From IMG/VR virus record IMGVR_UViG_3300032323_001392, positions 1-40,048 of that record: a DNA stretch of 40,048 bases; one strand, written 5' to 3'. The DNA is from a virus. The position numbers and the translations under genes were made by a program. Below are positions 2,745 through 26,320 of the stretch, one piece after another. Each line of letters begins with the position of its first letter. Position 1 is the stretch's first letter. Below the pieces are notes generated by a model, which ran no database searches, had not been told where the DNA came from, and worked only from the letters and a program-made list of their open reading frames with translations.

Positions 2745-4058
2745 TTATTGATTCTGTGTGACAGTTGCAGAGCAGCCTGCTGGATTGGCGCAACTCTGCT
2801 GTATGCTATATACCTGCGGGGTAGTGTTAGAATTTTGATTGAGAATGATTGAACTGGCGCCCCCCGCATTGGTCAGATCTATTGTGGCTCGATGACTGGC
2901 AGAGCCCTCTTGGACGATGTTGGCACTGTGTCCATTGCCTGTAAGTTTCAAATCAAGATAATGTTGTCCTGTGTCTTTTTGATTTGCAGTCACAGTGTTG
3001 TTGTTTCCCGTTATGTTAGTGAACATTATTTTATTACCGTTGCCTGTCTGTAATTTTGTAACGTTGTTTGAGTTTCCAGAAATCGTAGTTTCTGCAAAGT
3101 GTCCTCCAACTCCGCCTGTGTTTGATTGTTGTGTGGTAAGGGTATTTAGACTTCCAAATATGTCTGTGTATAGATAGTGTCCGTTTCCACCTATGGCGGT
3201 TCCCTGTGTAGTGTTCGCTTGATTAAGATTCAGTGTGTTTGTGTTCCCTACCACACGTAATTTGATTTCGTTGTTGCCTGTGGCACTAACTCCTTGACGT
3301 ATAGTGATATTGTTGCTGTCGCCGTCTATCAGCGCCTTGTCCTGACCTATGCCCATGATACTGCCGCGACCTTTTTGAACTATAGTGATAGTATTGTTGT
3401 CACCTATCTGCTCAATGTGTATACCAGCTTCTGATGATGTTCTTGCTCTAAATGCATCTACACGACTCTGTTGAGCTGTTGTGATAGAACTTGAATATTG
3501 TGGAGCCGCAGGTACCCAGTATGTAATATCAGTGGCTAACGAAGCTGAAGGAACAATCTGCCATGCACCGTTTACGAACCATTGGAAGTTGACCATCTGT
3601 CCGCCACTGTTTTCATAATACATTACTTCCACAGGCACAACGCCTGCTGACAAATTAATGCTGCCTGATCTAAAATCTCCACCACTTTCTATCCAACTAT
3701 TAACCACAAATACATTATTAACTTTAATGCGGATACCGTCGTCGGCCTGTCCGCCAAAGTAGTATGTGCCGGCTGTTGTGATGTTGATAAAACCATAGAA
3801 GCGAACAATAAATCCATCACTACGGGTAGGGAGTCCGGTTCCGCTGCTAGTAGTCAATCCCACGATATTTACGGTTCCAGTAGATAATAGTGTGCGATTG
3901 GTAATGTTTCCATTAACATCTTGTGTATAGCTGGGCATTGCACCACCGGCAGCATAATTCTGATAGTTAAGCCCTGTGGTACCTGCAGCTTCTACTTCCT
4001 GAGCTGTGGATATTAGACTAAACAGCGAGATTAGCAATAAAATGATGTTGTTCTTCAT
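2745..4058 (-). CDS. PA14-domain protein with C-terminal curlin repeats
   Basis: 437 residues. A signal peptide (MKNNIILLLISLFSLISTAQEVEA) is followed by a PA14-like domain at about residues 28-165. Its hallmarks are FYGFINITTAGTYYFGG and DDGIRIKVNN with a following W. From about residue 205 there are tandem curlin-type repeats with spaced N, I, Q and G (IEQIGDNNTITIVQKG, then similar units), and the protein ends in a Cys-containing tail. PA14 is usually a carbohydrate-binding beta-barrel; curlin repeats form cross-beta amyloid. So this may be a fibre subunit or cap that binds glycans. It overlaps the FecR-domain gene by 4 bases (ATGA). Confidence 0.8.
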   Translation of the reverse strand: MKNNIILLLISLFSLISTAQEVEAAGTTGLNYQNYAAGGAMPSYTQDVNGNITNRTLLSTGTVNIVGLTTSSGTGLPTRSDGFIVRFYGFINITTAGTYYFGGQADDGIRIKVNNVFVVNSWIESGGDFRSGSINLSAGVVPVEVMYYENSGGQMVNFQWFVNGAWQIVPSASLATDITYWVPAAPQYSSSITTAQQSRVDAFRARTSSEAGIHIEQIGDNNTITIVQKGRGSIMGIGQDKALIDGDSNNITIRQGVSATGNNEIKLRVVGNTNTLNLNQANTTQGTAIGGNGHYLYTDIFGSLNTLTTQQSNTGGVGGHFAETTISGNSNNVTKLQTGNGNKIMFTNITGNNNTVTANQKDTGQHYLDLKLTGNGHSANIVQEGSASHRATIDLTNAGGASSIILNQNSNTTPQVYSIQQSCANPAGCSATVTQNQ

Positions 4059-5164
4059 CTTTGTATTAAATTAATAATTGTACTACCACCACTGTTAACA
4101 CGATTACGAATTTCTACAGATCCCTGTATCTGTGTTATAGTGCTGTTTTGTTTTGTTGGAGTTGTAACACACTGCACATCGCTGCCTGAATCACGACACA
4201 GTGTGAGTTTAGGCTCATCTAGTTCTACAGTGACTCCGGATGTAGCTACCCAGTCTGGTAACAATTTATTGTTGTTGTTCTTGTTCAGCATGTCGATCTG
4301 TGAGGCCAGCTGTGCATTTACAATATCAAGTATATTAGCTAGGAAGTCTGAGTCAAGAAAATTACGACTTAGTTTGTCCTGATACATTTCTTTTTGTTGA
4401 GCTTCCAGCGCATTAACTAAACCCTGCTCTCTAAGAAAATCTACGTCGAGCACTCCTTTCATCTGAGCCCGTACTTGTGATTTGTCTTCTTTGAATTCCT
4501 TAGGTGGTGACAGTATCAACATGTTATTAATAGCGTCTAGACTTAGACTTAGGATCACAGGTTTCATTGGCATCACCCCACGTGATTCTACTTTTGTGGC
4601 TTGGAACGGTTGATCCATGACTACACGACCTTCGTCAGTTTCGACCCATATCTTTCCAGTCTTGCAGTCACGTTCTATGTTAGTCCATACGGCAGGACAA
4701 CTAGGCAACAGGATGATCGTGGAGCGACCCAATTCATCTACTGTTGCTGTGAAGTCTGTACCTCTAACAGATATTGTAGCACTTGGTGTGTTTACTGCTA
4801 CATTTTGTGGTGAATTTTTTGCAATTTGTCCTGATGCATAACGCACAGTTCCCATGGCTACTTTTACAGCCAACTTTCCACCCTTACTCTTACCTTCATA
4901 GACAAATTCGTCTATGACTAGTTTAGAGTTTTCGTTGACCTGTACTTTTGTGTCATCGTCAAATGTAATCCCAACTTTCCCTTGCGAGGTTTTTATCTGA
5001 TCCGACATCTCCACTCCAGTTCCCTTGGCTCCTGTAAGAGTTTGGCTCTGGCGTTGTATCGCCGGAGGATTGTTGGTCAGTTCTGTAACCTTGCCAATAG
5101 CTGCATTGGCGTTGGGTATAATATTCAGACAAAGAACAAAAAATATTGTCGTCCATAGTTTCAT
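4055..5164 (-). CDS. FecR-domain periplasmic protein of the curli-like operon
   Basis: 369 residues. The signal peptide MKLWTTIFFVLCLNIIPNANA is followed by a FecR domain (about residues 25-150): GVEMSDQIKTSQGKVGITFDDDT, then VRYASGQIAKNSP and the typical TPSATISVRGTDFTATV. FecR domains in exported proteins are usually protein-interaction or cell-surface domains rather than transmembrane sigma regulators; no anti-sigma segment is seen here. The C-terminal half (about 200-369) is unrecognised and has two Cys (LCRDSGSDVQC). It lies 8 bases after the curlin gene and overlaps the PA14-curlin gene, so it is co-translated with fibre components. Confidence 0.8.
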   Translation of the reverse strand: MKLWTTIFFVLCLNIIPNANAAIGKVTELTNNPPAIQRQSQTLTGAKGTGVEMSDQIKTSQGKVGITFDDDTKVQVNENSKLVIDEFVYEGKSKGGKLAVKVAMGTVRYASGQIAKNSPQNVAVNTPSATISVRGTDFTATVDELGRSTIILLPSCPAVWTNIERDCKTGKIWVETDEGRVVMDQPFQATKVESRGVMPMKPVILSLSLDAINNMLILSPPKEFKEDKSQVRAQMKGVLDVDFLREQGLVNALEAQQKEMYQDKLSRNFLDSDFLANILDIVNAQLASQIDMLNKNNNNKLLPDWVATSGVTVELDEPKLTLCRDSGSDVQCVTTPTKQNSTITQIQGSVEIRNRVNSGGSTIINLIQR

Positions 5165-5172
5165 TGCGGGCC

Positions 5173-5979
5173 TTAGTTGCCGGTAGTAATACCAATCGTA
5201 TTGCCACTACCTACACTTTTTAAATTAATAGTAGTATCAATAGTACCACTTTGTGCTGTGGTTACACTATTGCTCGACCCATTAAAATCAAAAGTAGCAC
5301 TATGACCATTAGTACCGCCACCACTTTGTGTAATACCGAAAGTGTTACTAGCACCAACTAACACAATACCTACAGTACCTTTGTTACCTGTTAGATTAGT
5401 AGTTATACTGTTAGCAGTACCACCACTGGTTGTGATAGTCTGTGTAGTATTATCAGCATTAACTGTAGATGTCAATGAAGCAGAACCGCCACTCTGGTTA
5501 GCAGTTAAACTGTTTTTGCTGCCCAGTATGTTGATACCAGCTGTGTTGTTACCACCAGTTTGTGTGATAGCTAATGTAGTGCTGGCATTTGTACCTGTGC
5601 CTGCATTGTTAAGGTTAATAGTACCTGTGTTTCCACCACCTGTTACAGTGTAGTTGATACTTGTAGGTGAAGCACTTGCTGCGGTAGTTGTATCAACCCC
5701 AAAGTTTAACACGTTGGCTGCTCCTGTTTGGCTGATGTTAATACCAATGCCGTCACCTTTCATCTTTGCAGGGGTTGTATTACTACTACCAACTCCTTGT
5801 ATGCCTCGAACAACGTTACCAGCACCATCCTGTGTAACATTGATTATGGCATTGTCACCAGCTTGATCAATATAGATGCTATTGTCAACAGCATGGCCCA
5901 GTGTTGGCATCGCAGCTAACACCAGAATTGTGAGTAATTTTCTCGACAACCCACCAGCGCCTTTGATTCTTGTTTTCAT
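5173..5979 (-). CDS. Curlin-repeat (CsgA/CsgB-like) amyloid fibre protein
   Basis: 268 residues. A signal peptide (long basic n-region, then LLTILVLAAMPTLGHA) is followed by repeated units of curlin type: IYIDQAGDNAIINVTQDGAGN, IGINISQTGAANVLNF, LAITQTGGNNTAGINILG, FGITQSGGGTNGHSATF. The spaced Q-G-N pattern and low charge are those of bacterial curlin subunits, exported unfolded through CsgG. It sits directly downstream of csgG. Whether it is a nucleator (CsgB) or a major subunit (CsgA) cannot be told. Upstream, in the 90-base gap to csgG, there is a perfect inverted repeat GGACAGTGTCC (6022-6032). The start ATG follows nine A and has no close Shine-Dalgarno, so the start is slightly uncertain. 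Confidence 0.82.
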   Translation of the reverse strand: MKTRIKGAGGLSRKLLTILVLAAMPTLGHAVDNSIYIDQAGDNAIINVTQDGAGNVVRGIQGVGSSNTTPAKMKGDGIGINISQTGAANVLNFGVDTTTAASASPTSINYTVTGGGNTGTINLNNAGTGTNASTTLAITQTGGNNTAGINILGSKNSLTANQSGGSASLTSTVNADNTTQTITTSGGTANSITTNLTGNKGTVGIVLVGASNTFGITQSGGGTNGHSATFDFNGSSNSVTTAQSGTIDTTINLKSVGSGNTIGITTGN

Positions 5980-6069
5980 TTTTTTTTCATATTAGGCTAC
6001 ATTATCACCTAATCGCTCCTTGGACAGTGTCCTGTTATAGTTAGTTCCTTCCTTTCGTGCTTACTTGCC

Positions 6070-7215
6070 TCAAGGTTTGTCAGATGTAAGCACATCTTTC
6101 TTAACAAACCCTTGCTTGCCGTCTCTGGCCTTAATCTTTACCCAATCCTTGTGATGTTCTACAACTTCAACTTCTAGTCCTGGTCCGAAAAACCACACAC
6201 GAGTGCTTTTTTCATCGTGTGTTTTATTCACATAAAGTCCGTGTTTCAAATACATTACTGCGGACTGTTTAACTTCTGCCTTTGGTTCTGGCTTCTTTTG
6301 ATCTGCTGTTGGACTCGCTTCTCCATTATCCTTTTGCGGAACAGTTGTGCTAATAGGTTTGACATCATCTTTTTTCTCCTCTACTTTAGGCAATTCTACA
6401 GGCTGTATAGGAACTGGTGGTGCGTCTTGTTTGTAGTCCCAGATGCCTTTGGCCTTGCCTTCTTTGATTAACTCTACTACTCCCATCTCTACGGCTGCTT
6501 TCACAGCATAAGTTCCTGGTTCATTTATAGTTAATCCTGCTTCAGCTTCGAACGCTTTAGTACCCATATCAAAGAATTTCAGAGCAGATATAGAATCTGC
6601 ACTGCTTAAAATAGTTTTCTGTACAGTGACACTGATCAACACTTTACCAGTGTTTACTGATATCGCACGTAAACTTACTGTTACAGTATCTTGAGTCCAT
6701 TGTGTCTGTTTACCGATGCCTAAAAATCTATGTCCCATCCCGCCACTGTTTACACTAGAATCGTAGCCGATGATTCCACCTTCTACAATTATTCCTGCAA
6801 ACTGCATAGGCATCAGCGGTTTGGCATTGTTGCCTTCGTAGGCTTCACGCATCTGACGTATGATCAATCGTTCTTTAGTTAGATTGTCTATGCCCACACG
6901 TTCAACCACTTCAAACCATTGTCCACGACCTACATCCTGTAGAGCTTTGATCAAGAATGTTTCTGCGCCCTGTGTAACAGCCATTGACAAACTGGCTACG
7001 TTGGCCTGTGGACGGCGCTGTCCTGTTTTGTCTTGAAAACTATATACTGCCACACTCAAAGGTTTGCCTGCTGCGGGTGGCGGCACAGCATCAAATTCTT
7101 TTTTCATCATTGTGCCAGTCACAGTGGGTTTAGTTTCTGTGACACCTGTGCTTTGGAGTATAGCACATCCACTGGTTAATGACATCAAGAGGGTGATCAA
7201 TAACAGTTTTTTCAT
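6070..7215 (-). CDS. csgG: CsgG curli secretion pore lipoprotein with C-terminal SH3 domain
   Basis: 381 residues. A lipoprotein signal (MKKLLLITLLMSLTSGC, lipobox Cys17) precedes a full CsgG domain (about 45-265) with family hallmarks: VAVYSFQDKTGQRRP, FEVVERVGIDNLTKERLIIRQ, IIVEGGIIGYDSSVNSGG, then VTVSLRAISVNTGKVL. Known CsgG forms a nonameric outer-membrane channel for unfolded curli subunits. After a Pro/Lys-rich linker (about 270-315) there is an added SH3b-like domain (MYLKHGLYVNKTHDEKS through DWVKIKARDGKQGFV), absent from E. coli CsgG and possibly peptidoglycan- or protein-binding. It starts 1 base after csgF and leads the fibre genes. No csgE is seen nearby. Confidence 0.93.
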   Translation of the reverse strand: MKKLLLITLLMSLTSGCAILQSTGVTETKPTVTGTMMKKEFDAVPPPAAGKPLSVAVYSFQDKTGQRRPQANVASLSMAVTQGAETFLIKALQDVGRGQWFEVVERVGIDNLTKERLIIRQMREAYEGNNAKPLMPMQFAGIIVEGGIIGYDSSVNSGGMGHRFLGIGKQTQWTQDTVTVSLRAISVNTGKVLISVTVQKTILSSADSISALKFFDMGTKAFEAEAGLTINEPGTYAVKAAVEMGVVELIKEGKAKGIWDYKQDAPPVPIQPVELPKVEEKKDDVKPISTTVPQKDNGEASPTADQKKPEPKAEVKQSAVMYLKHGLYVNKTHDEKSTRVWFFGPGLEVEVVEHHKDWVKIKARDGKQGFVKKDVLTSDKP

Positions 7216-9282: not shown

Positions 9283-9290
9283 TATTTATC
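9283..9290 (-). promoter_or_regulatory. T4-type late promoter (GATAAATA), leaderless
   Basis: GATAAATA set in a palindrome (ATACGAT-AAATA-ATCGTAT). The start codon (9275-9277) is only 5 bases downstream, at about the expected transcription start. Confidence 0.7.
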
Positions 9291-9972
9291 GTATCTCAGG
9301 GAACAGGCATTCTTGTATAAAATGCTGTACATCGTCCTCAGATAGCCCTAAACTAACCATTACACGTGGTGTATGGGGGTTACATTTCTGATTCTGAGCA
9401 TAGTAATTCTGCTCAAATGTGGTATCGGGAACTGTGTTATTGGTTTCTGCTACTGTACTGAGATAGTGCGAGATTGTAGTTTTAGCAAGATTTATGATCT
9501 GCTCTAGTTCTGCTTCATCGCTGACATTACCCGCAGCTACCATGCTCTTGCTGAATATGTTAGTGGCCCATTCTGGAAGAGCACGTTCTTTGCGCCATTC
9601 TAGTTTAGCAACTTCGTCAGCAAACCAATCCATCATAGGATGCTCTGGGTCACCTGCTTTTGAATAATCGTGGAAACAGCCAGTGATCTTGTTCTTGCCA
9701 GCAATAACATCAAAACCGTAAATTGGAGCAGGATTATGCGTGTGTGGGAAGATGCAACAATGCATCATCCAAAGACCTTTTGTTAGCCTAGCATCAACGA
9801 CATCAACGTGGGCCCTGCGATACTTGTCACTAGTCCATACACGATTAACCCAACCAGGCTGATTAAAACGATCCATTCCAGGTTCGAAGACTTCGACCCC
9901 AGTTTGCTCAAACGATTCTTCGAGTAGTTGTTGTATTTCAATTAGGGTATCCCAAACTTTACTGTCCGTCAT
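9286..9972 (-). CDS. pcyX: Ferredoxin-dependent bilin reductase (PcyA/PcyX-like)
   Basis: 228 residues from the ATG at 9972. The family core is clear: HVDVVDAR, WMMHCCIFPHTHNPAPIYGFDVIAG, then PEWATNIFSKSM, QNYYAQNQKCN and a C-terminal HFIQECLFPEI. By hand alignment to cyanobacterial PcyA, His88 (in MHC) and Asp105 (in GFD) are kept and Glu76 is replaced by Asp (HVD). These enzymes reduce biliverdin to phycobilins with electrons from ferredoxin. Similarity to PcyA with an altered Glu76 fits the phage-type PcyX, reported to make phycoerythrobilin; the product here is inferred. The start overlaps the heme oxygenase stop by 14 bases, so the two are co-translated. No ferredoxin gene is seen in the window. 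Confidence 0.85.
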   Translation of the reverse strand: MTDSKVWDTLIEIQQLLEESFEQTGVEVFEPGMDRFNQPGWVNRVWTSDKYRRAHVDVVDARLTKGLWMMHCCIFPHTHNPAPIYGFDVIAGKNKITGCFHDYSKAGDPEHPMMDWFADEVAKLEWRKERALPEWATNIFSKSMVAAGNVSDEAELEQIINLAKTTISHYLSTVAETNNTVPDTTFEQNYYAQNQKCNPHTPRVMVSLGLSEDDVQHFIQECLFPEIR

Positions 9973-10504
9973 ATAGATCACGCATCATCCTAATAGCATA
10001 TTCAAATGCTACACGAGCTTCGTCGCCTAAATCATCTGTAAGTATAGTACGAATAGAGGCTTTCATAGCATCTGCATTTTCAAAGTCGTAGAACTTGCCA
10101 CTTGAAATATGTGCTACCTGCTTCTTAATGATTTGGCCACCGAATAAGTCGCCCATATGACGGCAATATAAATGCGCCTTGATAAGATGTTTACGTTCTG
10201 GATCATTGCCTAATTTGTGTAGGTATATTTGGTATTCTAATGTTGCAGGAGTTAGATAGAGATATCTACCATCATCTAATTCTATAAAGTCTGCGTAGAT
10301 TGCTTTTAGTCTTGGCAGGTCTGGCATCGTATCAAGGAATCCTTGACGTTTACAATACCATTCGATTGGGTCGTAAATTGCCAGCATATTGTAAAGATAG
10401 TTTACATATTTCTTGCCGCCAATTTTGCCGCTAAGTAACATCTTAGCGAATTCTGTTTTTTCTGCTTCGTGATGCAGGTCTTGGGTGATCTCTTTTAAAC
10501 TCAT
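9959..10504 (-). CDS. ho1: Heme oxygenase
   Basis: 181 residues, a compact form of the family (cyanobacterial HO1 is about 240). The proximal heme ligand is His11 in QDLHHEAEKTEFA. The distal helix is HLYCRHMGDLFGGQIIKK, matching the R-x-x-G-D-L-x-G-G-Q signature. It opens heme to biliverdin, CO and iron using ferredoxin-type electrons, making the substrate for the reductase that follows. The start overlaps the clpS stop as TAATG. The operon order is clpS, heme oxygenase, bilin reductase. Cyanophages carry a comparable ho1-pebS pair; a heterotroph phage using it is less obvious. Confidence 0.93.
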   Translation of the reverse strand: MSLKEITQDLHHEAEKTEFAKMLLSGKIGGKKYVNYLYNMLAIYDPIEWYCKRQGFLDTMPDLPRLKAIYADFIELDDGRYLYLTPATLEYQIYLHKLGNDPERKHLIKAHLYCRHMGDLFGGQIIKKQVAHISSGKFYDFENADAMKASIRTILTDDLGDEARVAFEYAIRMMRDLYDGQ

Positions 10505-10803
10505 TATTCTTCTTCCACTTGTATACGTAAAGGTGAACCGTTGGCTCTGGCAAGATTAGTTGCTTCAATGCCTCGCTGTTCGGCTATCTCATATGTATAC
10601 ACACCGGCAATGCCGCTGCCCGTATTGTGGATTTCTAAAGTAATTTCTTTAGCACGAGTTTCTGTGTGTTTGAAAATTTTAGTGAGTAATTCAATGACCA
10701 ATTCCATAGGAGTAGCATCGTCGTTGAGGAATATCACCTTCCACAATTTAGGTGGTTGCAATGATACTACGATCTTCTCTTCAATTTTAATATCTGCGGT
10801 CAT
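10504..10803 (-). CDS. clpS: ClpS adaptor of ClpAP protease
   Basis: 99 residues from the ATG at 10803, chosen because GGAG lies a few bases upstream; a longer in-frame start at 10845 falls inside the leader hairpin. The core KLWKVIFLNDDATPMELVIELLTKIF contains the N-degron pocket signature (NDD.TPM..V). ITLEIHNTGSGIAGVYTYEIAE is the ClpA-contact face, and the C-terminus is GSPLRIQVEEE. Known ClpS delivers N-degron substrates to ClpAP and blocks other substrates, so a phage copy could redirect host proteolysis. It is transcribed from a perfect consensus sigma-70 promoter located in the end of hsp20. Confidence 0.93.
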   Translation of the reverse strand: MTADIKIEEKIVVSLQPPKLWKVIFLNDDATPMELVIELLTKIFKHTETRAKEITLEIHNTGSGIAGVYTYEIAEQRGIEATNLARANGSPLRIQVEEE

Positions 10804-10821
10804 TTTTTCTCCATTTAAGTT

Positions 10822-10841
10822 ATGGGGGATTTCTCCCCCAT
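10822..10841 (-). promoter_or_regulatory. 5'-end hairpin in the clpS leader
   Basis: ATGGGGGA-GAAA-TCCCCCAT on the minus strand: an 8-bp perfect stem with a GAAA tetraloop. It would form right at the expected transcription start (about 10842). It probably protects the 5' end of the clpS/ho1/pcyX message; there is no following T run, so it is not a terminator. Confidence 0.6.
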
Positions 10842-10848
10842 ACACTAC

Positions 10849-11347: not shown

Positions 11348-13249
11348 TTAGTCTTTCTTCTCTTCAAAAGTAGCGTCGACTACATCTTCCTGTGCAGGTT
11401 GTGGTTGAGCTTCAGCTTGTGCTGCCGCCTGTTCCTTGGCCTGCTTTTTCTCTAACAATGTTTTCATTGCAGGGAAAACCTTATTGAGCTCTTCTGTGAT
11501 CTTTTCAGCATCATCACCTTTAGCTGCTGTTTCAACTGCGGTGATAACTGATTCTATCTCAGAGATCTCTGTTTCTGTAAGTTCTGATCTAAATTCTTCT
11601 AGATCCTTTTTAACTTCGTGTACCTGTGCTTCTGCTGAATTTCGTGTTTCGATCAGTGTACGAGCTTTCTTATCTGATTCAGCATTAGCTTCTGCTTCGT
11701 CTATCATCTTTTTAATTTCGTCTTCAGTTAAGCCTGAATTAGATTTGATAGTGATTTTATTTTCTTTTCCTGTGCTTTTGTCTTTAGCTGAGATATGCAT
11801 GATACCGTTGGCATCAATGTCGAAGGTAACTTCAATTTGTGGCATACCACGACGTGCTGGAGCGATACCATCTAGCTTGAATTCGCCAAGCATCTTGTTA
11901 TATTGTACAAGTTCACGTTCACCTTGGAATACCTTGATATCCACTGCTGGTTGATTGTCGTCAGCTGTAGAGAATGTTTGGCTAGCCTTGGTCGGAATCG
12001 TTGTGTTCTTTTGAATCAACTTGCTCATTACACCGCCAAGTGTTTCAATACCTAGGCTTAGAGGAGTAACGTCTAGCAATAGAACGTCTTTGCGATCGCC
12101 ACCTAGCACAGCACCTTGAATTGCCGCACCTACAGCAACAGCTTCATCTGGGTTAACGTCTTTGCGTGGTGCTTTACCGAATAGTTTTTCAACTTCTTCT
12201 TGTACCTTAGGCATACGTGTTTGACCACCAACTAAGATGACTTCGTCGATGTCATCTTTAGTTACACCTGCATCTTTAAGAGCAGTACGGCAAGGGTCTA
12301 AGGAACGTTGGATTAAGTCATCTACTAGGCTTTCAAATTTTGCCTTGGTTAACTTAACATTTAAATGTTTAGGACCACTTGCATCTGCAGTGATATATGG
12401 TAGGTTAACATCTGTTTGTGCAGAGCTAGACAATTCAATCTTTGCTTTTTCAGCAGATTCTTTTAAGCGTTGTAGAGCCAGTGTGTCATTCTTTAGATCG
12501 ACGCCATTTTCTTTCTTAAATTCTTCAACCAAGTAATCCATAATACGTTGGTCAAAGTCTTCACCACCTAAGAATGTGTCGCCGTTTGTTGATAATACTT
12601 CAATCTGTTTCTCGCCGTCGACGTTGGCGATTTCAATGATGGATACGTCAAACGTACCACCTCCTAAGTCATACACAGCAATCTTGCGATCTACTTTATC
12701 TTGCTTATCAACACCATAAGCAAGAGCAGCAGCAGTAGGCTCATTAATAATACGCAATACTTCCAAGCCTGCGATTTTTCCAGCATCCTTAGTTGCTTGT
12801 CTTTGGCTGTCGTTGAAGTACGCTGGGACTGTGATAACTGCTTGAGTAACTTCCTCACCTAAATAGTCCTCTGCTGTCTTTTTCATTTTACGCAAGACTT
12901 CAGCTGACACCTGCGGTGGTGCTAATTCTTTACCTTGTGCTTCAATCCAGGCATCACCATTTGATGCTTCTGTGATCTTATACGGCATAAGGTCAATATC
13001 TTTTTGTACTGCTTGTTCTTTGAATTTACGACCAATTAATCGCTTGCTTGCGTAAATGGTGTTTTTAGCGTTAGTAACAGCCTGACGTTTAGCAGGAGCA
13101 CCAACAAGGATTTCATCTGAAGTGTAAGCAACGATACTAGGTGTAGTACGAGCGCCTTCTGAGTTTTCAATAACTTTGGATTTGCCGCCTTCAATAACAG
13201 CGACACATGAGTTTGTTGTACCTAAATCGATACCGATGATCTTAGACAT
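11348..13249 (-). CDS. dnaK: Full-length DnaK (Hsp70) chaperone
   Basis: 633 residues, the usual bacterial length. ATPase domain: [13 protein letters not shown] at the N-terminus, [60 protein letters not shown]. The interdomain linker [15 protein letters not shown] is intact. The substrate-binding domain follows ([19 protein letters not shown]), then a helical lid and a charged tail ending [12 protein letters not shown], as in proteobacterial DnaK. All key parts are present, so it should be an active ATP-driven chaperone. No dnaJ or grpE is in the window, so it must use host co-chaperones or ones encoded elsewhere. A late promoter (13331-13338) and a hairpin-rich leader precede it. Confidence 0.97.
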
Positions 13250-21736: not shown

Positions 21737-22252
21737 TCAGCCGTTCAATACCTTAGCAAGACTGTTGATCACAGATGCAATACGACCAATATCACGAAGT
21801 TGTTCTACAGAGTATCCCATCTTCTTTAATCCATCGTAGTGCGCCTTGACACAGAAATGACATTTGCCAACGATACTGGCAGCTAATGAGTACGATTCAA
21901 ATCGTTCGGCAGTAGTACCACCGTGTGTTGAAATCGCATTCATACGCAACTGTGCTGGTAGTCCACTTAGTGCCGGATCGCCAGCCATCTCAACGTAAGG
22001 ATACCATACATTGTTCTGTGCCATTAAGCTCGCGGCAGTCATTGCGGCATCACGTTCTTGTTCATCAACAATGTTGCTCATGATGAACGAAATCAATTTG
22101 CCGTTGCCTGTGGACATTGCGGCTGCTAGTGCGCAACCTTCTGCTTCTTCTACAGGTAATGTGCTACGCTTAATAACAGCATCAAGATTTAACTTAGTGT
22201 CCTTTGCGTATTCTGGCAACGATTCTTTAAGTTGATCCACCCATGCAGTCAT
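21737..22252 (-). CDS. ahpD: AhpD alkylhydroperoxidase
   Basis: 171 residues. The AhpD signature is complete: VGKCHFCVKAHYDGLKKMG, with the redox pair Cys131 and Cys134 and His138 of the proton relay; Glu119 lies in RFESYSLAAS. In actinobacteria and others AhpD reduces AhpC, coupled to a lipoamide/NADH system. It follows ahpC with a 1-base overlap (TAATG), so this is a two-gene peroxidase system. It could protect against peroxide stress during infection. Confidence 0.93.
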   Translation of the reverse strand: MTAWVDQLKESLPEYAKDTKLNLDAVIKRSTLPVEEAEGCALAAAMSTGNGKLISFIMSNIVDEQERDAAMTAASLMAQNNVWYPYVEMAGDPALSGLPAQLRMNAISTHGGTTAERFESYSLAASIVGKCHFCVKAHYDGLKKMGYSVEQLRDIGRIASVINSLAKVLNG

Positions 22253-22791
22253 TATAGTGTCTCTCCGCCAACTGTTCGGTTACATGCACATAGTTCGCCA
22301 GTTTGAAGAGCATCAAGAACACGAAGTGTTTCTTCTGGGCTACGACCAACGTTCAAGTTGTTGACAGTAACGTGTTGGATTTCGTTGCTTGGATCAACAA
22401 TGAATGTAGCACGTAGAGCTGCGCCAGCTGGTGCGTAAAATATACCAAGCTGTTCAATCAATGACTTCTCACCGCGTTGTGTATCTGCAAATTGATTGTG
22501 TGTGATCTTTTGTAGATCACTGTGTGCTTTCTGCCAACTGACTTTACAGAACTCATTGTCTGTGCTGCCTGTGAGCAACACTGCATCACGGTCAGCAAAG
22601 TCACCTGTCAACTTGTCGTAGGCTACAATTTCTGTAGGACATACAAATGTAAAGTCCTTTGGATAGTAAACGATTACTTTCCATTTTCCCGGAAAGGATT
22701 CCTCAGTGATGTCAAAAAACGCATCATCAGGCTGTCCTGGTCGAACTCCCGTTACCACAAACGGTTCTAATTTATCGCCAACTGTTTTCAT
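22252..22791 (-). CDS. ahpC: AhpC peroxiredoxin
   Basis: 179 residues. Peroxidatic Cys51 in DFTFVCPTE, the catalytic Thr within the same motif, and Arg in GAALRATFIVDP. The C-terminal LCACNRT gives Cys168 and Cys170 as resolving thiols, as in the AhpD-dependent AhpC type. It reduces hydrogen peroxide and organic peroxides in the cytoplasm. First gene of an ahpC-ahpD operon behind a sigma-70 promoter and a CACACACAAGGAG leader. A phage copy of this pair is uncommon. Confidence 0.95.
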   Translation of the reverse strand: MKTVGDKLEPFVVTGVRPGQPDDAFFDITEESFPGKWKVIVYYPKDFTFVCPTEIVAYDKLTGDFADRDAVLLTGSTDNEFCKVSWQKAHSDLQKITHNQFADTQRGEKSLIEQLGIFYAPAGAALRATFIVDPSNEIQHVTVNNLNVGRSPEETLRVLDALQTGELCACNRTVGGETL

Positions 22792-22844
22792 AATATCTCC
22801 TTGTGTGTGTTGAAAACTTCATTCAGTGTTTATACTGATATCTT

Positions 22845-22873
22845 ATTGTACATTTATATATCCTATTAATCAA
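22845..22873 (-). promoter_or_regulatory. Sigma-70 promoter of ahpC with inverted repeat
   Basis: TTGATT (22868-22873), 17-base spacer, TACAAT (22845-22850). The -35 box lies in an inverted repeat CTATTAA/TTAATAG, a possible operator. It does not fit an OxyR site spacing. Confidence 0.8.
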
Positions 22874-22941
22874 GCGATTTTAATAGGTTTTCCAACAAAT
22901 ATTTTAATGACGCTTATTAAAAAAATTAATAACGTAAAATG

Positions 22942-22962
22942 AAAAACCCGCCGGAGCGGGTT
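22942..22962 (-). terminator. Intrinsic terminator of the outer-membrane barrel gene
   Basis: AACCCGC-TCCG-GCGGGTTTTTC on the minus strand. Confidence 0.9.
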
Positions 22963-22982
22963 CTATTTTGGAACAATTTAAA

Positions 22983-23564
22983 TTAAAATTTAACTACATA
23001 CCCTGCGTTGGCTCCAAGGAATTCTGAATCTTTCCAAGAACGATCCAATCCTGCTGTTACCATAGTGTTTTCTGATAGTGTATATTCTGCACCTAGGCGT
23101 AGAGTATTGGTTTGATCAAAATAGCTGTCGCTGAATGAATCACGGAAACGGTATCCAACTTTTACAGACAACGGGCTTGTTAATTGTACCTTAACTCCTG
23201 GTTCAACAGAATAGTATGAATAATCAGCGCCATTTGTGTATTTGTAACCAACTGCACCTCTTGTGTAAAGTGCTACATCTTTTAACACACCATATTGATA
23301 TGAAAGGCCTGTTTCTAAGCGAGTTGCTTCGTTGCCATTTCGTCCGTTCTCTGAACGAAACTGATTGTTAACGTCCCAGGTAAGATTTTCTAAAACTTTA
23401 GTTCCAAATGTAAAATTCACACCTTGACGATTTGGATCTGCTTTGTCACTAGCAACAGTATCACGATATGCATATTGCAAATGGATAAAGTTTTTTGCTG
23501 ATTTATCCTCTGCGAATGCTAGAGTTGAGAATACTGCTAATGCTACTAATAATGCTTTCTTCAT
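22983..23564 (-). CDS. Outer-membrane beta-barrel (porin-like)
   Basis: 193 residues from the ATG at 23564, which has AAGGAG upstream and begins the signal peptide MKKALLVALAVFSTLAFA; a longer in-frame start at 23621 lacks both. The mature protein shows regular amphipathic strands and ends with a terminal Phe (LGANAGYVVKF), the outer-membrane assembly signal. About eight to ten strands would fit, like small porins such as KdgM or OmpW-type barrels; the exact family is not clear. It may alter host permeability or mask phage receptors. Confidence 0.85.
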   Translation of the reverse strand: MKKALLVALAVFSTLAFAEDKSAKNFIHLQYAYRDTVASDKADPNRQGVNFTFGTKVLENLTWDVNNQFRSENGRNGNEATRLETGLSYQYGVLKDVALYTRGAVGYKYTNGADYSYYSVEPGVKVQLTSPLSVKVGYRFRDSFSDSYFDQTNTLRLGAEYTLSENTMVTAGLDRSWKDSEFLGANAGYVVKF

Positions 23565-23626
23565 ATACTTCTCCTTATGTACACTGTTTGGCATGTGGTT
23601 CCGTAGTTCAAATATCACCAAACAAT

Positions 23627-23669: not shown

Positions 23670-23702
23670 CGATAACCGTAGGTAAATGTGGGCAAATCCA
23701 AT

Positions 23703-23728
23703 AAAAAAGGCCACCGAAGTGACCTTTT
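23703..23728 (-). terminator. Intrinsic terminator of the tmRNA gene
   Basis: AAAAGGTCAC-TTCG-GTGGCCTTTTTT on the minus strand, a strong hairpin with a T run. Confidence 0.92.
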
Positions 23729-23729
23729 G

Positions 23730-24048
23730 CTATTTTGGGTTACAAGGTATAACTACCCCGGACCTGCTGTTTTTTAGGCAGCTAGAGCAACTTTGCTTTT
23801 ACCAGAAACTGTGTTTCCAGTGAAGCTCATTGCTGTGAAGTCAAATGTATCTGCGTTTGCATTTACGTTTTTTGCTTGGATTACGTCCATCGCCTCTCGT
23901 GTTGCCGTCTCTACTATCTCACGCTGTCGAAACCTGGTCACCCCCACCCAAATATACTTTTCAATACACTTGGGTGGAGGTGGGCGGAATCGAACCGCCG
24001 TCCAACATGCCTTCGCTTTGAAGGGATTACAACAATTCTATTATTTAC
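23730..24048 (-). ncRNA. ssrA: Circularly permuted (two-piece) tmRNA
   Basis: Read on the minus strand, the acceptor piece comes first: an arm CCTTC/GAAGG, then CATGTTG, then the T arm GGCGGTTCGATTCCGCC and acceptor strand CACCTCC (23976-23982), discriminator A and CCC. After an intervening loop comes the coding piece, starting GGGGGTG (23939-23945) and continuing ACCAGGTTTCGACAGCGTG. The acceptor strands pair 7 of 7, CAGCGTG pairs with CATGTTG as P2, and the linker extends the acceptor helix to about 18 bp. The tag frame is at 23774-23860. tmRNA with SmpB rescues stalled ribosomes. The outer ends are approximate; the terminal A of CCA is not encoded. It is downstream of cspA. Confidence 0.92.
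23774..23860 (-). other. tmRNA tag-encoding frame (28 residues)
   Basis: From resume codon GCA the tag begins ANADTFDFTAMSF and ends GKSKVALAA before TAA. The end VALAA is the usual protease-recognition end. The resume site is chosen by the run AAAAAACGTAAATGCAAAC, like other tmRNAs. Most tags are about 8-15 residues, so this one is long. Confidence 0.8.
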
Positions 24049-24053
24049 CCAAC

Positions 24054-24257
24054 TTACGCTGGATAAATGTTTGCTGCCTGCTTGCCTTTTTGTCCTTGCA
24101 CTACATCAAACGTTACTGCTTGATTTTCCTGTAGAACTTTGAAGCCTGAGCTTTGTATTGCTGAGTAATGAGCAAATAAATCCTCACCACCGTTGTCTGG
24201 AGTAATAAATCCAAAACCTTTGGTTTCATTAAACCATTTTACTTTTCCTGTTGCCAT
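24054..24257 (-). CDS. cspA: Cold-shock protein (CspA family)
   Basis: 67 residues, the standard size. RNP1 [11 protein letters not shown] and RNP2 LFAHYSAIQ (a change from the usual VFVHFSAI) lie in the single OB-fold, with [14 protein letters not shown] at the N-terminus and [18 protein letters not shown] at the end. It binds single-stranded RNA or DNA and melts mRNA structure, and could aid translation of structured or leaderless messages. It is just upstream of the tmRNA on the same strand and may be co-transcribed. Confidence 0.95.
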
Positions 24258-24278: not shown

Positions 24279-24542
24279 TTAAATTTTACTTTCTTTTTGA
24301 CTTAGTGTCAAGAGTTTAGAATGTAAAATCATGTTTTCTGTTACTAATTTGGTTAAAGTTGCTAATATAACCAAACGTTCGTTATCTGTGTAAACATCTT
24401 TGTCAAATTGATCAAGTATGCTTGTTCCAATCATTTTCATTGCTTCTGTCTTGCCTTGCTTAAATGACCCCCAGTCAAATGGGTCACCCTCTTCTACCGC
24501 AAATGCGATATCAATTAGTTCTTCTAATGTTACTTTAGCCAT
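24279..24542 (-). CDS. 87-residue hypothetical phage protein
   Basis: All-helical prediction. It begins MAKVTLEELIDIAFAVEEGDPFDWGSF and ends LLTLSQKESKI. No signal peptide and no known motif. It overlaps the DUF454 gene by 13 bases, so the two are co-translated, and a ribosome site (GGAGAAAAGGTAGG) lies before it. The function is unknown. Confidence 0.7.
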   Translation of the reverse strand: MAKVTLEELIDIAFAVEEGDPFDWGSFKQGKTEAMKMIGTSILDQFDKDVYTDNERLVILATLTKLVTENMILHSKLLTLSQKESKI

Positions 24543-25809: not shown

Positions 25810-26100
25810 CTAGACTAATTTAATACCAGTAGTACTTTGTACAAACTGATCGGCGAATGCCTTGTCTGTGGCTTCTGCTACTGTGATTGTGGTTTTTAAC
25901 AGTTTAATTTCCTTTTCTGGATTCACTGTGAATAGATACGGCATTAATCCTGGACCTCTTTCACCCATAGCTATAACCATTGGGCGTGATAGTTTATAAA
26001 AACTATCAGTTTCTGCTGATAATCTAGCTACTATCTCTTCTCCTGAAGTGAGTTTTAAAGTAATCACTTCACCTACTGTTACACCTTTATCAATTAACAT
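25810..26100 (-). CDS. LSm-like small phage protein
   Basis: 96 residues. The region GEVITLKLTSGEEIVARLSAETDSFYKLSRPMVI fits an Sm-like beta-barrel (strands with G-x-x-V and a G-E-E turn), as in small LSm-type proteins of marine T4-like phages. Bacterial Sm-like proteins bind RNA; no direct evidence for that here. It overlaps glutaredoxin by 11 bases and is 9 bases from the peptidase gene, all in the nrd cluster. Confidence 0.65.
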   Translation of the reverse strand: MLIDKGVTVGEVITLKLTSGEEIVARLSAETDSFYKLSRPMVIAMGERGPGLMPYLFTVNPEKEIKLLKTTITVAEATDKAFADQFVQSTTGIKLV

Positions 26101-26320
26101 TTTCTAACCTTTTCTTTAATTCTTGAAATCCACCTACCAGTTCTCCATCGAGAACAATCTGTGGTACTGATCTCGCTCCGGGTACTGCTTCTAACAAATC
26201 TTCTTTAAGATAACCATCACCGATAATTTTTTCTTCGTACTCGATGCCTTTCATCTTTAATAATGCTTTAGCCTGATCGCAATAAGGACAGGCAGGTTTG
26301 CTCCAAACTACAGCTTTCAT
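26090..26320 (-). CDS. Glutaredoxin
   Basis: 76 residues, a single-domain glutaredoxin. Redox motif CPYC at residues 11-14 (WSKPACPYCDQAKALL), cis-Pro in RSVPQIVLDG, and glutathione-binding GGFQEL. In T4-like phages it supplies electrons to ribonucleotide reductase, and it follows nrdA and nrdB here. The start has AGGAT upstream. Confidence 0.93.
   Translation of the reverse strand: MKAVVWSKPACPYCDQAKALLKMKGIEYEEKIIGDGYLKEDLLEAVPGARSVPQIVLDGELVGGFQELKKRLENVN

Follow-up and report, generated by a model that had tools for sequence, protein, structure and literature searches.

A circularly permuted tmRNA gene of a phage with a long peptide tag that carries a conserved core, possibly a second recognition signal

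The window, that is the whole stretch of DNA that was analysed, is a 40,048-base IMG/VR fragment with a GC content of 40.1%. It carries a circularly permuted (two-piece) tmRNA gene on the minus strand at 24034-23774, on which Rfam and ARAGORN agree. The permuted model RF04321 (tmRNA_permuted) is matched at 24034-23774 over its full length (model positions 1-213 of 213) with 146.2 bits against a cut-off of 47. RF01850 (beta_tmRNA) has the top score among the clade-specific models, with 157.3 bits against a cut-off of 84, and extends over 24081-23702 including a 3′ hairpin; four weaker overlapping matches of the same clan were omitted by the tool. The independent call by ARAGORN is a permuted tmRNA at 24064-23683. 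A permuted two-piece tmRNA in a phage had already been proposed by the first-pass annotation and is borne out by these three results, the permuted and the beta form both lying above cut-off. The feature it placed at 23730-24048 is real, but it is located on the minus strand and its limits differ slightly in all three calls. Moreover, the most striking trait had been overlooked: the length of the tag and the conserved core within it, which are described below.

Along the RNA, the order of the elements is P2 5′ strand, T arm, acceptor 3′ strand, intervening sequence, acceptor 5′ strand, GGUUUCGAC loop, PK1 and tag. The acceptor piece begins with the 5′ strands of the P2 helices (24003-24034; RF04321 alignment and sequence), the pairs of which covary. 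It is followed by the T arm GGCGG-UUCGAUU-CCGCC (23983-23999; RF04321 and sequence), with a T stem that is paired to 100% in 23 relatives and shows compensatory changes, and by the acceptor stem 3′ strand CACCUCC (23976-23982). Position 23978 within this strand is U70 of the G3:U70 wobble, which is the pair used by alanyl-tRNA synthetase. A73-C74-C75 are encoded at 23973-23975 and the next base is a C, so A76 is unencoded. The intervening sequence of 27 nt (23946-23972) is presumably cut out during maturation. The coding piece starts with the acceptor stem 5′ strand GGGGGUG (23939-23945), which is supported by sequence and covariation. Further downstream, the D-loop-like element GGUUUCGAC (23926-23934) was assigned by the RF04321 alignment and the sequence, the P2 3′ strands (23900-23926) by the alignment and covariation. 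They are followed by pseudoknot PK1 (23874-23899) and by the tag reading frame ANADTFDFTAMSFTGNTVSGKSKVALAA with 28 codons and a UAA stop (23774-23860), called by ARAGORN, whose resume context UAAAUGCAAACG agrees with the Rfam consensus. The tag contains a conserved core, TFDFTAMSFTGNTV (23807-23848), and ends in frame with VALAA-UAA, a hydrophobic-Ala-Ala degron (23777-23791) plus stop. A terminator-like hairpin followed by a T run is found at 23702-23728; it corresponds to the last helix of RF01850 and was read by eye, as the signal scanner did not list it.

The acceptor piece with its T arm is thus placed upstream of the coding piece, as the Rfam alignment, the fold and the sequence confirm, and the two acceptor strands pair with each other in the permuted layout, in all 7 of 7 positions (CACCUCC/GGGGGUG) as stated before. 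The linker prolongs this helix, as had also been suggested, to 20 contiguous base pairs by the fold and not to about 18. The precursor hairpin is exceptionally stable (z -6.95), with none of 200 shuffles reaching its stability, and the fold of the 262-nt RNA has a z-score of -5.05. By every feature tested, this gene is a permuted tmRNA; a two-piece mature RNA, its charging and the binding of SmpB are predicted.

Conservation of the structure was analysed with an alignment of 23 of the 36 reference tmRNAs, all of them phage relatives; seven tmRNAs were excluded for lack of an exact T-loop match. In this alignment, 92.9% of the pair cells are standard and two-sided changes occur in 22 of 35 pairs, compared to a shuffle mean of 9.3 (0 of 500 shuffles). 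The covariation score is 0.302 versus 0.096, and the pairing signal is lost when the structure is slid by one base. Several compensated versions of the acceptor stem exist among the relatives, and U-G at G3:U70 is found without exception, in the window as well as in the 23 phage tmRNAs of the alignment. The pseudoknot, the lack of which would have counted against the first-pass annotation, is present: stem 1 of PK1 is paired to 93.9%, stem 2 to 94.7%, and both covary among the phage relatives. In the window itself, one P2 pair is weakened by an A-A mismatch, and so is stem 1 of PK1 at its third pair, which leaves two of the three tested pairs of this stem. A relic or a false positive is ruled out by covariation. 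As a variation of this architecture, L214 and L243 have a P2-to-tag stretch of 377-378 nt versus 183 in the window, so their intervening sequence is probably much longer.

The tmRNA lies directly behind a cold-shock protein gene (csp) on the minus strand (24054-24257; PF00313, 3.4e-30), with 19 nt between the end of csp and the tmRNA core. Upstream of csp, a promoter-like TTGACA-17-TAAAAT is present at 24283-24311 (minus strand), with 11 of 12 consensus positions in a scan that returned no higher count than for shuffled sequences; at most, it might serve as a promoter of csp and tmRNA. A porin-like gene is located downstream of the tmRNA and nrdA and nrdB farther upstream. This gene order is kept, with a Csp family gene just upstream of the tmRNA in 76 and nrdB in 75 of 155 relative loci. 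The row of genes 3′ of the tmRNA (21737-23621, minus strand) encodes the porin-like protein, an AhpC/TSA peroxiredoxin and a CMD-family protein, and a glutaredoxin is encoded at 26090-26320; together they form an oxidative-stress set.

The tag of 28 amino acids is composed of a 14-residue conserved core (consensus TFDF-AMSFTGNTV), a drifting linker and a standard degron. In 20 distinct core-bearing tags, which were chosen by motif, pN/pS amounts to 0.20 for the 14 codons of the core (95% interval 0.08-0.41), 0.79 for the linker (0.48-1.26) and 0.22 for the degron (0.00-0.79). Synonymous exceed amino acid differences per site in the core by about 5:1, and dN/dS was 0.158 in an earlier set with 16 distinct cores. 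Restricted to the only four codons outside the search pattern, the value is 0.45 (0.14-0.80; first 25 of 46 sequences of the motif-scan set). When tags were selected by length instead (26-33 amino acids, among 46 dnaK-linked tmRNAs called by ARAGORN), 23 tags were obtained and the motif was found in 22. The tag region has a weak consensus RNA fold (-4.6 kcal/mol, covariation -0.38), and since it shows little conserved RNA structure, the constraint appears to act on the peptide. Taken with the low pN/pS of core and degron and the value of 0.79 between them, this points to two conserved peptides separated by a free linker. DNA identity as such does not argue for the tag, because the 60 nt past the stop codon are about as conserved between the same loci (84% identical) as the core DNA (86%).

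The core followed by an -AA end is present in 24 of the 53 permuted tmRNAs linked to dnaK and is therefore dispensable within this clade. Among the 46 of them called by ARAGORN, the core is printed in 22, other tags of at least 20 amino acids in ten and short tags in 14. Several of the other long tags open with a related stretch, e.g. ANASTFEYF or AKTSTFKF. One of the 14 short-tag calls (L245, contig 3300008117_006924) has an intact core that is not read in frame from the resume codon, owing to either a frameshift in this copy or an error in sequencing. In addition, L007, L020 and L077 have tmRNA bodies nearly alike to those of L023, L049, L089 and L119, and ARAGORN reports tags of 23 amino acids for the former and 8 for the latter; the 8-residue calls may result from a wrong resume codon.

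The occurrence of the core was searched with the pattern F-[DE]-F-x-[AG]-x-x-F-x-G-N-x-V, written as degenerate DNA and run over all IMG/VR contigs. At least 119 stretches were found, and among the matches listed 118 of 119 are tmRNA tags, the sole exception being an ordinary protein (L275). In 99 of 116 new loci, GGNTTCGAC lies upstream at a distance of no more than 420 nt, and a further 16 were assigned by the tag reading alone; the other three of the 119 listed (L067, L069 and L078) had already been called as tmRNAs. The same pattern in 84,980 prokaryote genomes (species) gave 21 matches, none of them a tmRNA tag, and ARAGORN finds no tmRNA at these sites. One of them, L377, has GGNTTCGAC upstream, yet it does not read as a tag. 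A comparison of the core peptide with 50,697 phage records returned no tag-like match and 18 primase matches with E-values of 4 or worse. Five tags had no match in Pfam, NCBIfam and PHROG at E≤10, and the best PDB matches reached only E-values of 0.51-0.53; the second of these, a secreted protease in which the stretch DTFDFSG looks similar, was treated as a chance match. The core may bear some resemblance to RTX repeats. The Csp protein was considered as a source of the tag and is dissimilar by eye. The accessible part of the literature on phage tmRNA and on phage Clp and DnaK, with its incomplete journal coverage, does not report the core. Among the matches listed for the genomes and contigs searched, the core has been found as a tag only in phage tmRNA copies, for which it would be specific.

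The closest ssrA genes of Burkholderiales, the one order sampled with 399 genomes, are 72-76% identical over about 150-185 nt, and their tags include ANDERFALAA and ANDENFAMAA. A quick tree of 132 rows and 152 columns, in which many branches are weak, places the window in a set of 62 rows, most of them viral (SH-aLRT 98). Eight of ten short-tag host rows lie outside this set and two lie inside on a branch of 0.27. Rows in which no T loop or D loop could be recognised, duplicates and every locus of the motif scan had been omitted from the tree, so that no row was picked by motif. From the low identity to host ssrA and the position in a mostly viral set, the tmRNA gene looks like a long-term resident of phages; the acquisition from a host that the first-pass annotation suggested is possible. 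A single origin of the core is unsupported: the tree needs nine changes of the core, at least two of them forced by the starred branches, and the tag therefore appears to be modular or recombining.

The window further encodes, on the minus strand, a DnaK (11348-13249; PF00012, 1.3e-259; NCBIfam DnaK above cut-off) and ClpS, the N-degron adaptor of ClpAP (10504-10845; PF02617, 2.2e-26), and clpS is present in 75 of 80 dnaK loci. A DnaK search returned 80 viral records with a permuted tmRNA in 53 (29 of 40 and 24 of 40). Within 33 relative records, a ClpP-family protein was found in 26 and a Clp-ATPase domain in 11; both named examples of the former match ClpP best and both of the latter ClpA. 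G044 and G041, which have short tags, carry Clp-ATPase and ClpP genes, as do G027 and G028, in which no tmRNA was found. The presence of Clp genes in short-tag and tmRNA-less relatives is evidence against a strict pairing of Clp and core. SmpB was found in 0 of 47 viral records, Lon and SspB in 0 of 33 relative records each; an excerpt of PMC7162821 reports that huge phages encoding SmpB exist. The largest relative records span 200-383 kb and a T4-type major capsid protein is present in 7 of 15 tested records, including G001 and G036, the two largest with the tag type of the window, which is why we regard these viruses as large T4-like phages. ClpA is described as highly conserved across most Rak2-like phages (excerpt of PMC6102473), and these may be related to the group of the window. 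A bilin reductase-like gene (PF05996, 3.3e-12) adjoins a heme oxygenase gene (PF01126, 6.4e-20) at 9286-10504 on the minus strand, possibly forming a phage bilin pathway.

The gene architecture, the conserved RNA structure and the selection on core and degron are direct observations. The best explanation, which we consider fairly probable as a whole, is a functional permuted phage tmRNA, its function being predicted, with a tag that includes a second, phage-specific peptide signal. The carrier would be a large T4-like aquatic phage, with the tmRNA probably transcribed in common with csp. The transcript is expected to fold into the long acceptor hairpin, from which, going by known tmRNA biology, host tRNA-processing enzymes would excise the intervening piece to yield a two-piece tmRNA, and host enzymes would add the missing A76 and charge the RNA with alanine via G3:U70. 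Host SmpB, assumed here in view of its lack in the 47 viral records, would bring the tmRNA to stalled ribosomes. There a two-part tag would be added, consisting of the phage-specific 14-residue core, the free linker and the ALAA-type degron, and tagging would be followed by proteolysis as in known systems. Since it is the peptide that is conserved in the core, the most likely role of the core is that of a second signal recognised by a protease, an adaptor or a chaperone, and the phage would thereby decide on the fate of proteins that are tagged in the course of infection; the phage Clp/DnaK set would be the first candidate partner and host Lon the second. The restriction of the core to phages suggests that the phage steers the fate of the proteins it tags. 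We put forward only tentatively, and with some doubt, that a phage lineage rewrote the rescue tag into a two-signal address, in which a phage-only peptide leads to phage-chosen machinery (e.g. ClpS/ClpA/ClpP and DnaK) and the universal degron is kept.

Alternatively, the gene could be an ordinary phage tmRNA whose extra residues are a spacer that exposes the degron and has no partner of its own. Spacers can help proteases to engage, the ALAA degron is retained and other phages carry long tags of different sequence. However, a spacer should drift, which the linker does (0.79) and the 14-residue core does not (0.20), and the same core sequence is seen again in 118 of the 119 matches listed for its motif, which makes a mere spacer rather unlikely. 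If instead the conservation acted at the RNA level, with the coding stretch folding or pairing inside the tmRNA, the 9-bp hairpin that the tag stretch of the window can form in its minimum-energy fold and the hardly varying codons TTC and AGC would be explained. The weak consensus fold of the tag stretch lends this little support, and the excess of synonymous over amino acid differences in the core opposes it, so we judge it to be highly improbable. Nor do we give much credit to a decoy, an RNA whose main role is to titrate SmpB of the host or to stand in for the host's own tag: it has been proposed for the tRNA-domain-only RNA of phage DS6A (excerpts of PMC4131195 and PMC11915505) and would suit the lack of phage SmpB in 47 records, but a decoy needs no tag, and here selection acts on the core as well as on the degron.

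A further reading, in which the core is a second degron for a protease other than ClpXP, either host Lon or phage ClpA-ClpP, is one route by which the best explanation could be realised, and we hold it to be possible though short of probable. In Mesoplasma florum, a tag that differs in length and sequence is degraded by Lon, which recognises exposed aromatic regions without small polar residues (excerpt of PMC8138137); the core is rich in Phe, and ClpP and ClpA are encoded by phage relatives. On the other hand, phage Lon is missing from all 33 records, the occurrence of Clp genes is not tied to that of the core, and the small polar residues of the core (S, T, N) fit the description of a Lon-type site badly.

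Permuted tmRNA in phages is already known (excerpt of PMC9004378), and what is new here is the tag, which is long and contains a conserved core. According to the same excerpt, phage Melnitz has a permuted two-piece tmRNA and two-piece forms account for 53 of 133 unique phage tmRNAs; a pattern scan made here yielded at least 119 viral stretches. Like the phage of the window, Melnitz and related marine phages are large phages of aquatic bacteria with a permuted tmRNA, and a curli module occurs in the window and in Melnitz. However, the tmRNA of Melnitz is described as being of an alphaproteobacteria-like type, with a glutamine riboswitch linked to it (excerpt of PMC9004378), whereas the best model of the window is of the beta type, and no riboswitch was found beside the tmRNA or anywhere in the window at Rfam gathering cut-offs. 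The extended tag core of the window also sets it apart from Melnitz-type phages, as it is absent from the 50,697 phage records searched. With betaproteobacterial RF01850 the window shares the permutation, the acceptor strand CACCUCC, the unencoded A76, PK1 and the resume context; in contrast, tags of betaproteobacterial hosts mostly have 10 amino acids, e.g. ANDERFALAA, and the window tag has 28 with a conserved core. M. florum is similar in that a tmRNA tag was changed in length and sequence, suited to another protease, but it is a bacterium without ClpXP (excerpt of PMC8138137), and the phage gene retains an ALAA-type end. The Rak2-like jumbo phage Atu_ph07 likewise encodes ClpS, ClpA and a Clp proteolytic subunit; PMC6102473 does not contain the word tmRNA and so proposes no link of Clp to a phage tag.

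The tmRNA database holds 79 phage sequences, and its commonest tag length is 10 (excerpt of PMC11915505). Tags are usually seen as one short degron, mostly of 10 amino acids (same excerpt), and a second conserved peptide in a widespread phage tag departs from that. What phages want from tmRNA thereby becomes testable, with the core as a 14-residue bait for pull-downs and in reporter fusions. The core would also supply an orthogonal tag for degradation or sorting and would serve as a metagenome sequence marker for this phage group. If the reading as a two-signal address were true, it would represent a virus-run route of tagging and sorting for proteins interrupted during infection.

Unusual tmRNAs were also observed beyond this group. 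The cultured Stenotrophomonas phage vB_SmaS-DLP_6 (KU682439.2; L426, 1940-2283) contains an unannotated permuted tmRNA with the tag ANDDSFAPMAIAA, and a bacterial locus (L412, genome G347) has a permuted tmRNA with an odd 28-residue tag, GNQPSNLQVMQQFDVPTPANGDQYLNVA. The curli-like module of the window (4055-7215, minus strand) comprises a FecR domain, a curlin repeat and CsgG, and its FecR protein matches those of Melnitz and HTVC008M with 39-43%.
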